Below are positions 5,042 to 39,902 of a stretch of DNA of 40,349 bases, one piece after another. The DNA is taken from positions 1 to 40,349 of the forward strand of contig JAPLMW010000092.1 in the NCBI GenBank assembly GCA_026386845.1, in the 5' to 3' direction. The stretch is from Phycisphaerae bacterium (GTDB lineage Bacteria; Planctomycetota; Phycisphaerae; Sedimentisphaerales; UBA12454). How positions within the stretch are numbered: position 1 is the first letter of the stretch; each line of letters opens with the position of its first letter. The position numbers were made by a program, and so were the translations under genes. A model generated the notes under the pieces. That model was not told the DNA's origin. It did no database searches and worked only from the letters and a program-made list of their open reading frames with translations.

Positions 5042-6112
5042 TCAGACACGCCTGAATTTTCTCAACTTCTCAAGCATCTGCTGAAAATCAATAGGCAGAG
5101 GCGCCTCGAATGTCATTTTCTTGTTCGTCGTCGGATGCGTCAATTCAAGATGCCAGGCGTGAAGAGCAGGCCTTGCCATCAGCGGTTCTTCAGGCTTGGC
5201 CTGTTTATCCTCAATCTGCCAGTGATAGACAATTTTCCCTCCGTACATTTCATCGCCGACTATCGGGTGTTTTATATAAGACATATGGACGCGTATCTGA
5301 TGCGTTCTGCCGGTTCTTATGTCAAGTTTAAGCAGCGAATAACCCCTGAATTTTTCGAGAACCTCATAATATGTTATCGCTTCCTTGCCGATTTCCGGCC
5401 GAACTGCGAATCTCTCGCGTATTATCGGGTGAACAGCCAGCGGCTTATTTATGCAATCCGCCAAAAGTTCAGGTGTGCCGTGCACAATCGCCAGATAATG
5501 CTTTCTTGTTTGTCTCATTTCAAATTGTCTGGCCAGCCGCCAGTGAGCGGTATCATTTTTCGCGATTACAAGAGCGCCTGTGGTATTACGGTCGAGCCTG
5601 TGAACTATGCCGGGGCGAAACTCCTCGCTGCCCTTTGAAAGCTGCTTGGCGTAATACACAAGAGCATTGACAAGCGTGCCTTTCTTAAAGCCTCTGGCGG
5701 GATGAACAATCAAGTTCGCCTGTTTATTGATAACAAGAATATCATCGTCCTCGTAAATAATATTGAGCGGAATATTTTCCGGAATAATTTCTTTAATCTC
5801 AGGCGGCGGCAGAATCAAATCCACGGTATCTCCCGGCGAAAGTTTCGTGCTGGGCTTGGCGGTTTTGCCGTTGATAGTTACCGCCTGTTCTCTTATCAGT
5901 TTCTGAAGTGTTGTTCTGCTGAACTGGCTTAATCTGCCCTGGAGGTATTTATCGAGCCTGCGGTTTGTTATGTTATTTCCGACCCGCAGCGACAGGTGTT
6001 CCGCGCCTTCGGTCTGGTCAAGTAATTCCTGCCCGCCCAAAGGCGAAGTCTCGCCTAAAGCGGAGTTGTTTTGTTCGTTTGTGTTTTGGCCTGTAAGCTC
6101 TTGCTCATTCAT
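5042..6112 (-). CDS. rluD: RluD-type 23S rRNA pseudouridine synthase
   Basis: This 356-residue protein probably converts uridines to pseudouridine in 23S rRNA. After a polar extension of about 40 residues it has an S4 RNA-binding domain (RRLDKYLQGRLSQFSRTTLQ), then the RluA catalytic domain with GIVHRLDRNTTGALV, whose Asp is the catalytic residue. S4 plus catalytic domain and the overall length fit RluD/RluC rather than RluA; the exact target uridines cannot be told from sequence. Its Shine-Dalgarno (AAGGTG) and the first two bases of its ATG lie in one arm of an inverted repeat (6111-6183), which may control translation. The gene follows a YfgM-like gene on the same strand. Confidence 0.9.
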   Translation of the reverse strand: MNEQELTGQNTNEQNNSALGETSPLGGQELLDQTEGAEHLSLRVGNNITNRRLDKYLQGRLSQFSRTTLQKLIREQAVTINGKTAKPSTKLSPGDTVDLILPPPEIKEIIPENIPLNIIYEDDDILVINKQANLIVHPARGFKKGTLVNALVYYAKQLSKGSEEFRPGIVHRLDRNTTGALVIAKNDTAHWRLARQFEMRQTRKHYLAIVHGTPELLADCINKPLAVHPIIRERFAVRPEIGKEAITYYEVLEKFRGYSLLKLDIRTGRTHQIRVHMSYIKHPIVGDEMYGGKIVYHWQIEDKQAKPEEPLMARPALHAWHLELTHPTTNKKMTFEAPLPIDFQQMLEKLRKFRRV

Positions 6113-6183
6113 CCCGCACCTTTTAAATATTCAATGTATCACGTATATTTTTTGAAGAATTGAATGGAAAGAAGGTGCGGGAT
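6111..6183 (-). promoter_or_regulatory. Hairpin that would mask the rluD ribosome-binding site
   Basis: Bases 6111-6122 and 6172-6183 are perfect 12-bp inverted repeats, with a second 7-bp paired block (6129-6135 with 6159-6165) nearer the loop. On the minus-strand mRNA the 3' arm reads AAGGTGCGGGAT, i.e. the Shine-Dalgarno through the AT of the start codon. The 5' arm lies about 10 bases after the stop of the upstream gene. No T-run follows, so it is not a typical terminator. A near-identical arrangement is found before the Gfo/Idh gene at 39775-39887. Confidence 0.6.
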
Positions 6184-6193
6184 TCATCTCAAG

Positions 6194-6979
6194 CTATTTA
6201 GCCAAATTAAAGTCCAAATCCTTCTGCGATGTAATACCAGTTCCCGTCAACGGTGTTTCCAGTTCCAGCGGCTTGTCTGCGGGCTGCTGAATTTGCGGTT
6301 TTAGAGCCTGAACAAAAAAGACCTTTTCCTGGTAGTCGCTTATAACCTGTGCACGAAATTTCGCTCTTGCATCGAATGAGGTGCCCTGATATTGGGGCGA
6401 ATCAGCTATTTTTTCATAAAGTTTTTTGGCTCCTGCAAAATCTCCCATATCCTCAAGGCACAAGGCTATTCCATATTCGGCCATAGCCGCCACTTCGGGC
6501 GAATCCTTTGCCTTTTCGAGAGCCTGTTCATAAACAGTTTTTGCCTGCTCAAGCTGATATCTCTGCACATCAGCTTCTGCAGCCTTGGGACGATAGTGAA
6601 GCTCGGTGCGAAGAGCTTCTGCCCTTTTAATCATCGCTAAAGCTGACAAAAGCGGATTGTCTGTTTCCGTAGCGGCGTTTTGAAGACTGCCTGCCGTGTT
6701 AAGAAAAATATCCGAAACACCCAGCCCCTGCACTTTGCCGGCCAGCACAGTCTCTCTCTGCCAAATAAGCTGCTCAAGCAAAGCCGTCGTCATCGCCTGC
6801 TTTTGCTCCCAGACATCGCCCTGTTTGCTGTAAAAGAATATTGTATAGACAATAAGGCCTGCGATTACAATCGCCCCGACAATTATAGTTGTCTGATTTT
6901 CCTTAAACCACTGAGGAAAATGTATAATCCAGTCGGCCAGTTCATTTGTTGCCAACTCATGACGACGTTCTGATTTCAT
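6194..6979 (-). CDS. Membrane-anchored TPR-like protein (YfgM-like)
   Basis: This 261-residue protein has a short cytoplasmic N-terminus, one membrane helix (about 30-50, TTIIVGAIVIAGLIVYTIFF) and a long exposed helical region. Two stretches resemble tetratricopeptide repeats: YQLEQAKTVYEQALEKA and AEYGIALCLEDMGDFAGAKKLYEKIA. The layout of one N-terminal helix plus TPR helices is that of YfgM-like proteins, which assist the SecYEG translocon in E. coli, but the resemblance is structural and the function here is inferred. An AAGGAAA Shine-Dalgarno precedes the ATG. It is followed on the same strand by the RluD-type gene, across the inverted repeat. Confidence 0.6.
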   Translation of the reverse strand: MKSERRHELATNELADWIIHFPQWFKENQTTIIVGAIVIAGLIVYTIFFYSKQGDVWEQKQAMTTALLEQLIWQRETVLAGKVQGLGVSDIFLNTAGSLQNAATETDNPLLSALAMIKRAEALRTELHYRPKAAEADVQRYQLEQAKTVYEQALEKAKDSPEVAAMAEYGIALCLEDMGDFAGAKKLYEKIADSPQYQGTSFDARAKFRAQVISDYQEKVFFVQALKPQIQQPADKPLELETPLTGTGITSQKDLDFNLAK

Positions 6980-37470: not shown

Positions 37471-37620
37471 TAGCCACCAAGACACGAAGGCACGAGGTTT
37501 AAAGAAGTAAGGAAGTAAAGAGGCAAGGAAGTAAGGAAAAACGAGCGAAAACATTCCTTACATCCTTACTTCCTTATTTCCTTGCTTCCTTTTCTTTGTG
37601 TCTTGGTGCCTTTGTGGCTA
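37471..37620. repeat. Long inverted repeat upstream of uvrA
   Basis: The arms at 37471 onward (TAGCCACCAAGACACGAAGG, then AAGTAAGGAAGTAA-type units) and up to 37620 (the reverse: TTACTTCCTTATTTCC, then TTTGTGTCTTGGTGCCTTTG) are imperfect inverses over about 70 bases each. The CCACCAAGACAC type is a dispersed intergenic repeat; a fragment also occurs near 25839 and the CCTTACTTCC part at 23272-23308. It lies in the 5' region of uvrA. Confidence 0.7.
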
Positions 37621-38933: not shown

Positions 38934-39776
38934 TCAATCCCATTTATGCTCTTTAACGGATTTTAAAATTTCCTCAGCGCATTTGAGAGCGGCCAAGCCT
39001 TCGGCAGCAGTTACTTCGGGACGATTATTTTTATCGGCAACGGCATTTAAAAATGCCTCCTGCTCGACACGGAGAGGTTCCCTGTCATCTATATCAAGCT
39101 GTTCAATATGGAGCAAATCCGGCCAGTTTATGCCGGCAAAATCAAAATTGCCTTCCTGCTGTTTTTGCTTGACCCATTTTACCACGTCTTTATTGGGGTC
39201 TGTATTTATCACAAGGCCTTCTTTCTTTAGGAAATCGAGGCTCAAATATGCCTGCCTGCTGGCGAGAATAATATCAATATCGTGAATCATTACATCAAGG
39301 ACAACGCCAATATCGGTCGAGCGAAACGGATAAGGACTGATTCTGACCGCTTCGATGAATTTCGGCTCGATTTTGAGCCTTTTCATCGCCTGCACGACCG
39401 GATTGCATCTTTCTGAATGTCCTACTGCGACGACCGTATTATTTTTTTCGGCGAGCGCAACAATTTTTTCGCCATCGGCTGCGCTTGCGGCAAGAGGTTT
39501 TTCAATAAGTATAGGAATATTATTGCTTATGAAAAGTTCGGCAAGTTCAAGATGGCTTTTTGTCGGAGCTGAAATTGTTACGGCATCGACTTTGCCTAAA
39601 AGTTCCTTTGCATCCGCAAAAGCAGCACATTTGTATTCCTTTGCAAGTTTCTTCGCCTTGTCGGGCTGAACATCAACAATTGCGACAAGGCTGCTTTGAG
39701 GCAGTTTGCTGAGGACTTTTGCGTGAATCTGCCCCATTTTGCCTGCGCCGACTACCGCAGTTCTGATTTTATTCAT
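38934..39776 (-). CDS. Gfo/Idh/MocA oxidoreductase next to lpxA, possibly GnnA-like
   Basis: This 280-residue NAD(P)-dependent enzyme has the Rossmann start VVGAGKMGQIHAKVL, the family EKP motif (ILIEKPLAA, 92-100) and GHSERCNP. It follows lpxA on the same strand. In some bacteria GnnA, a UDP-GlcNAc 3-dehydrogenase of this family, lies near lpxA and supplies 3-amino lipid A precursors; that role is plausible here by context only. It is shorter than the usual 310-330: after MIHDIDIILA the sequence jumps to SRQAYLSLDF, lacking about 45-50 residues of the sheet domain by comparison with remembered relatives. Its Shine-Dalgarno and start sit in an inverted repeat like that of rluD. Confidence 0.82.
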   Translation of the reverse strand: MNKIRTAVVGAGKMGQIHAKVLSKLPQSSLVAIVDVQPDKAKKLAKEYKCAAFADAKELLGKVDAVTISAPTKSHLELAELFISNNIPILIEKPLAASAADGEKIVALAEKNNTVVAVGHSERCNPVVQAMKRLKIEPKFIEAVRISPYPFRSTDIGVVLDVMIHDIDIILASRQAYLSLDFLKKEGLVINTDPNKDVVKWVKQKQQEGNFDFAGINWPDLLHIEQLDIDDREPLRVEQEAFLNAVADKNNRPEVTAAEGLAALKCAEEILKSVKEHKWD

Positions 39777-39887
39777 CCCGCACCTTCTTTAATTCCTTAT
39801 TACTTCTTTTATGTTTCATAGAAAAAACTTTATTTTATAAAAAATATATGACCTACCAATATATTGAATATTTAGAAGATGCGGGAT
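39775..39887 (-). promoter_or_regulatory. Hairpin that would mask the Gfo/Idh ribosome-binding site
   Basis: Bases 39775-39788 and 39874-39887 pair over 14 bp with one G-U in the mRNA. The 3' arm reads AGAAGGTGCGGGAT and includes the Shine-Dalgarno and AT of the start codon. The 5' arm lies about 15 bases after the lpxA stop codon. Compared with the rluD copy, a G-C pair is replaced by G-U, so pairing is kept. The 85 bases between the arms are AT-rich. Confidence 0.6.
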
Positions 39888-39902
39888 TCATTGGCAATCC
39901 CA

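Follow-up and report, generated by a model that had tools for sequence, protein, structure and literature searches.

The locus upstream of the rluD-like gene raises the question of why a hairpin should cover the start site of one gene and recur at the start of another, unlinked gene in the same window (the whole 40,349-nt stretch of DNA that was analysed). On the minus strand, the arm AAGGTGCGGGAT at 6111-6122 terminates on the ATG of a 356-aa rluD-like ORF and has a perfect 12-bp complement at 6172-6183, and the inner blocks ATTGAAT/ATTCAAT also base-pair. The initial annotation had described such a 12-bp complement, an additional 7-bp block and an arm holding the Shine-Dalgarno sequence and most of the start codon; all three were recovered, with a measured spacing of 49 nt. 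Its further claim of the same arrangement with the same arm at 39775-39887 held for the arrangement, which is a real second copy, but not for the arm, in which one change (AAGATGCGGGAT) gives a G-U pair. Minus-strand genes lie downstream of both hairpins (Table 1), and RNA folding against dinucleotide shuffles gave z = -5.7 for the rluD copy and z = -3.4 for the copy at 39775-39887. An ordinary Rfam RNA was rejected as the identity of the hairpin because no Rfam family matched anywhere in the window. Separately, nested imperfect inverted repeats of the GGAAGTAAGGAAG type were observed at 37472-37611, upstream of a uvrA-like gene.

Table 1. Positions of the two element copies in the window, their target sites and the neighbouring genes
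Feature	Position	Strand	Remarks
Short element copy, 71 bp, at the rluD start, TCCCGCACC...GGTGCGGGA	6112..6182	-	inverted orientation
Nuclease-coding remnant PAPFKYSMYHVYFLKN* in the rluD copy		+	matches full-length L242, 92% over 25 nt
Target duplication TGAA, right copy	6108..6111	-	with the element's last A forms the new rluD ATG
Old rluD start ATGAA, left target copy	6183..6187	-	6 nt past the TPR-gene stop; its ATG now opens the 18-codon leader ORF MNPAPSFHSILQKIYVIH*
Shine-Dalgarno AAGGTG, supplied by the element	6117..6122	-	paired within the hairpin
Host gene, RluD-type pseudouridine synthase (S4 + PseudoU_synth_2)	5042..6112	-	356 aa
Upstream TPR-repeat gene	6194..6979	-	its stop precedes the old rluD start by 6 nt
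Second copy, 111 bp, at the oxidoreductase gene start	39776..39886	-	usual orientation
Target duplication TGAA, right copy	39772..39775	-	new start = element A + TG; empty in 9 relatives
Old start ATGAA, left copy	39887..39891	-	opens the leader MNPASSKYSIYW*
Host gene, GFO_IDH_MocA (Gfo/Idh/MocA) family oxidoreductase	38934..39776	-	280 aa

Copies, target duplications and start codons

Searching the 2.40-Mb genome for the arm and its inverse within one mismatch returned 46 forward and 47 reverse matches, nearly all as convergent pairs, and the reversed control returned 0 and 0, a copy number that excludes a chance palindrome. About 38 element copies were present in the window's genome (a planctomycete MAG near the Sedimentisphaerales, which are represented among its closest named genomes, themselves planctomycete MAGs), and 106 copies were collected from six genomes of one family; of 397 genomes sampled from across the class, 6 contained the short element, all of one family. 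The copies have terminal inverted repeats of 13 bp and are usually 106-112 bp long (other forms measure 45-50, 71-81 and up to about 150 bp), with the general layout TGNN/TCCCGCACCTTCT...AGAAGGTGCGGGA/TGNN and a 4-bp direct repeat at both sides. This repeat is mostly TGAA (TTCA on the other strand), also TGTA, TGGA and TGAG, and the flanks are identical at 4/4 positions in the large majority of the 106 copies; since the variants match side to side, the repeat is a target duplication and not element sequence. A minority of copies, that of rluD included, stand in inverted orientation, and one of 271 bp (L204) is a short copy containing another inserted repeat.

Indeed, we found uninterrupted sites in relatives. 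In nine relatives, the rluD start is uninterrupted and comes only a few nucleotides after the TPR gene ends, and at the second locus one relative reads acgggtatttcaATGAATAAAATC against the occupied gggattgccaATGAA[111 bp]ATGAATAAAATC. In the relative G009, 12 of the 15 element-bearing genes that were located are empty and 3 are occupied (trpB, ispH and a YSC84-like lipoprotein gene), and a table of 14 genes by 11 genomes likewise gave a patchy distribution. Because relatives have an uninterrupted start at the same gene, the element copies are insertions with target duplication.

As regards start codons, the initial annotation had considered that genome-wide copies might bear no relation to them; instead, 84 of the 106 copies in the six genomes terminate precisely at the start of an ORF, on its start codon. 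The geometry there is A-TGNN/TCCCGCACC...GGTGCGGGA/TGNN, in which the element's last A or G and the TG of the duplication make the new start (ATG in 81, GTG in 3) and the Shine-Dalgarno AAGGTG is located inside the element's terminal repeat. Among copies flanked by TGAA, 72 of 76 are at starts, compared with 25 of 102 non-coding ATGAA sites sampled from the window's genome, and TGAA accounts for 86% of targets (72/84) and 34% of start codons (25/73); both the TGAA sequence and the start-codon setting therefore matter. The surroundings of the targets otherwise resemble those of any ATGAA start, except for a preference for A at -1. The targets include many normally essential genes, as judged by sequence likeness (ispH, murG, tsaD, acpS and others). 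The initial annotation had offered, as one of two readings, a mobile palindrome that brought a ribosome-binding site, and this is strongly supported by the roughly 38 copies, the 4-bp duplication, the empty sites and the position at start codons.

The other 22 copies are off the exact start register. Four copies of 47-50 bp lie in frame within long ORFs (L047:2548-2597, L189:2097-2143, L192:2042-2091 and L223:2083-2132), and in these the length plus the 4-bp duplication is a multiple of 3, so that 17-18 codons are added in frame. We also observed a subgroup (L047, L048, L050:12682-12785, L054 and L189) with C/G as the outermost pair and with flanks of TTGA, not TGNN; its members are not at start codons, and the TTGA of L050 contains the stop codon of the preceding ORF. 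TTG was tried as a start for this group and rejected, as no ORF of at least 60 codons begins there.

When comparing the interiors of the copies, we observed that those of non-orthologous copies are about 59% identical (shuffled level 55%) and that some pairs at different genes reach 88-94% (L036/L057 in the window's genome, L186/L202 in G008); these near-identical interiors show that the short forms move. In addition, some genes carry unrelated copies in two genomes (L230 in G004 against L186 and L202 in G008), which are therefore independent insertions at one start codon. When a gene carries the element in more than one species, the interiors usually share 83-98% identity, with host third codon positions at 45-76%. 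This likeness was seen in L035/L184, L043/L237/L212, L045/L235/L210 and others. Constrained vertical descent could account for it, as could lateral spread; it is not what simple decay of a dead insert would give, and this counts against the explanation that we prefer below. At murG, a one-base change common to G008 and G009 favours descent, and separate insertions are favoured at tsaD, where the near-identical elements L234 and L203/L213 have duplications of TGGA and TGAA, and by L232 and L206, which are near-identical elements at the same gene with duplications of TGAG and TGAA; in each case both sides have changed together. Selection on a leader peptide was also considered as the cause of interior conservation and rejected for ispH, where, by eye, the G006-G009 differences are not concentrated in third positions.

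Full-length copies and their GIY-YIG gene

One ORF takes up the 297-bp copy L240:2458-2754. It starts at the left ATG, the old start of the host gene (MNPAPSQYSIYHVYLLKSKADNSLYIGYTNNLNRRLDEH...), ends 13 nt before the returned start and encodes a GIY-YIG protein (Pfam PF01541, 4e-17). A second full-length copy, L242, 71% identical in the genome search, is found in a genome of another family, and in both the GIY-YIG nuclease is the sole gene. The differences between them fall on codon positions 1:2:3 as 21:12:48, and the GIY-YIG protein is therefore under purifying selection. At E <= 1e-18, the 397 genomes of the class sample yielded no third full-length copy, and none was found in the window's own genome, an incomplete MAG. 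The nearest solved structures to the nuclease are UPF0213 proteins, none of which, to our knowledge, is bounded by repeats.

The N-terminus of the nuclease, MNPAPS, is encoded by the element's own end. Short copies retain this N-terminus (MNPAPSKYSIYYVYLLKN...), some retain ...LHIGYTNDMNHRLEQ before the right end, and at one host gene the copy measures 106 bp in G009 and 297 bp in G011. The copies of about 110 bp are internal deletions that kept the ends and sometimes recognisable nuclease codons. A role of the nuclease in mobility is suggested by its association with the two full-length copies; we know of no GIY-YIG enzyme that makes 4-bp target duplications.

Other GIY-YIG genes were noticed beside repeats. 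L243 (G000:C33:7109-7357) carries one between different inverted repeats, CCCTCACACCAATGGT and ACCATTGGTGTGAGGG, directly before a phosphofructokinase-like coding start, and is possibly a second family with the same habit. L253 (G039) and L257 (G014) are GIY-YIG genes with terminal hairpins at the same position inside 23S rRNA genes, and the hairpin of L253, TCCCGCACCTTTTTG, has an end sequence nearly that of the start-codon element.

The hairpin and the retained old start

In the predicted mRNA folds, the Shine-Dalgarno sequence and the start codon are paired (mean start-site pairing probability 0.91), a predicted sequestration like that of RNA thermometers and riboswitches. Moreover, 1049 of 1092 arm pairs are Watson-Crick, and the covariation that the initial annotation had thought worth checking is present, both sides having changed in 25 cases against 1.9 expected. 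These compensatory double changes indicate that arm pairing is kept, for which template-switch repair of palindromes could be an alternative source. Given the predicted pairing and the compensatory changes, the other reading in the initial annotation, a translational switch, seems plausible only as a consequence of insertion.

The old start is still ATG, GTG or TTG in 76 of the 84 copies at start codons, in another 5 an ATG stands 1-2 nt away from it, and sequences like Shine-Dalgarno occur upstream of old starts at the normal rate. Sixty-one copies of 95-125 bp have ATG as their old start, and in 24 of them the leader ORF is open to an ATGA overlap (TGA over the new ATG), against 3.7 expected by shuffling. 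All 24 fall in the length class that produces such an overlap, and some of the openness may be a remnant of the nuclease ORF. Because a ribosome from the retained old ATG would open the hairpin, and because many leaders end in ATGA overlaps, translational coupling between the leader and the host gene is likely. Six copies (L045, L235, L210, L046, L052 and L186) contain near their centre a third arm, AAGATGCGGG or a similar sequence, which could pair with the left arm in place of the start-site arm in the manner of an attenuator.

Origin of the element and comparison with known systems

We consider it probable, with some reserve, that the hairpin in the window is an internally deleted short copy of a mobile element that inserts at start codons, is driven by its nuclease and has its hairpin opened by leader translation. 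Insertion duplicates a 4-bp target, usually the TGAA of ATGAA, and the host gene receives a new start (A or G of the element plus TG) and AAGGTG, with the old ATG staying across the element. In the full-length element, the nuclease gene is read from the captured old start and ends just before the returned start, and by nicking or cutting start-codon sites the nuclease may drive insertion of the full-length as well as the short copies. The arms would fold, in the mRNA, into a hairpin that hides the new start; a ribosome from the old ATG would then pass the left arm, unfold the hairpin and start again at the new start or close to it. Expression of the host gene would thereby survive, and even essential genes could tolerate the insertion. 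Weighing against this explanation are the association with two full-length copies as the ground for the nuclease's role, the 4-bp duplications, the inverted minority of copies and the 22 copies off the start register.

The standard anatomy of a MITE likewise combines terminal inverted repeats with 4-bp duplications and short non-coding copies, and the element might be MITE-like, mobilised in trans by an ordinary transposase that is absent or unassembled here, with the GIY-YIG gene as a captured passenger and with ATGAA preference plus selection for harmless sites accounting for its positions. We regard this as unlikely, since in each of the two families the nuclease ORF runs from the captured ATG through the whole of the full-length copy, is under purifying selection and has left remnants in short copies, and since non-coding ATGAA sites other than starts, although about threefold commoner, are nearly free of copies. 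Furthermore, apart from nested or neighbouring copies, the 567 kb of fetched DNA contained no longer element that combines these ends with a matching duplication, and no relative with the same ends that encodes a DDE-type transposase; the full-length relatives found encode GIY-YIG. The candidates for a large transposon with the same ends were rejected: the unpaired arm matches of L040 and L060 belong to coding DNA that is unrelated, L037 consists of two copies side by side, and the long spans of L052, L060, L182 and L230 are two short copies flanking other DNA.

A true homing element, whose nuclease cuts uninterrupted starts so that repair copies the element into the same gene from another genome, would fit both the interior likeness of same-gene copies relative to host third positions and the patchy distribution over the tree, but homing creates no target duplications and no spread to many unrelated genes, both of which are seen here. 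As the upstream flanks of element-bearing pairs are 0.54-0.84 identical, giving no sign of co-conversion, and the tsaD duplications differ between species on both sides, we hold homing to be improbable. Least of all do we expect a non-mobile RNA regulator encoded by the host (a translational switch or thermometer), to which the stable hairpin over the Shine-Dalgarno sequence and start, the compensatory arm changes and the strong interior conservation at some genes might point: a stand-alone regulatory hairpin is excluded by the empty sites and target duplications, and near-identical copies at unrelated genes, some 38 copies before functionally unrelated genes and the lack of an Rfam match in the window make it very improbable.

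The element that we propose resembles MITEs and the short bacterial interspersed palindromes Correia/NEMIS, RUP and BOX in its inverted repeats, short duplication, many non-autonomous copies and hairpin transcripts, but it targets the start codon itself and returns a start and a Shine-Dalgarno sequence, and its only full-length relative encodes a GIY-YIG nuclease, not a transposase. Unlike REP elements, which are palindromes without target duplication, it has target duplications. Rickettsia palindromic elements are palindromes of about 50-150 bp that insert in frame in protein-coding genes; here, four copies of 47-50 bp lie in frame within ORFs, and most copies of our element are at start codons, outside the protein. 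Free-standing GIY-YIG homing endonuclease genes, of which the T4 seg genes are examples, have one cognate site and make no duplication, whereas the element has inverted repeats, target duplications and deleted non-coding derivatives and occupies dozens of unrelated sites per genome. Such genes are likewise small and lie between neighbours left intact (GIY-YIG survey, PMC1564403). The single-domain GIY-YIG proteins of UPF0213 (PDB 1zg2, 1ywl), the closest solved sequences, are one compact domain like the element's nuclease. IStrons (PMC4227781), inteins and bypass elements are also selfish DNA harmless to the host gene, by splicing or bypassing, whereas this element would be so by rebuilding translation initiation.

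In the open literature (subscription journals and preprints being outside the scope), we found no description of elements that target start codons or carry only a GIY-YIG gene. It seems to us evenly balanced whether this is a transposable element of a new class, with a lone GIY-YIG nuclease for its mobility enzyme and start codons for its target, in which the initiation site is exchanged and host translation is linked to that of the element. Mobile elements usually avoid genes or splice out, and this one enters the most sensitive position of a gene; the insertion would be tolerated, even in likely essential genes, because the element rebuilds the start signal. Should the GIY-YIG protein be what moves the element, it would represent a new kind of transposition enzyme, and the small GIY-YIG proteins, a widespread family that is poorly understood, would gain a testable function. 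Further, the element may offer a natural system for studying how start codons are recognised as a DNA target and how a start-site hairpin is opened by coupled translation.
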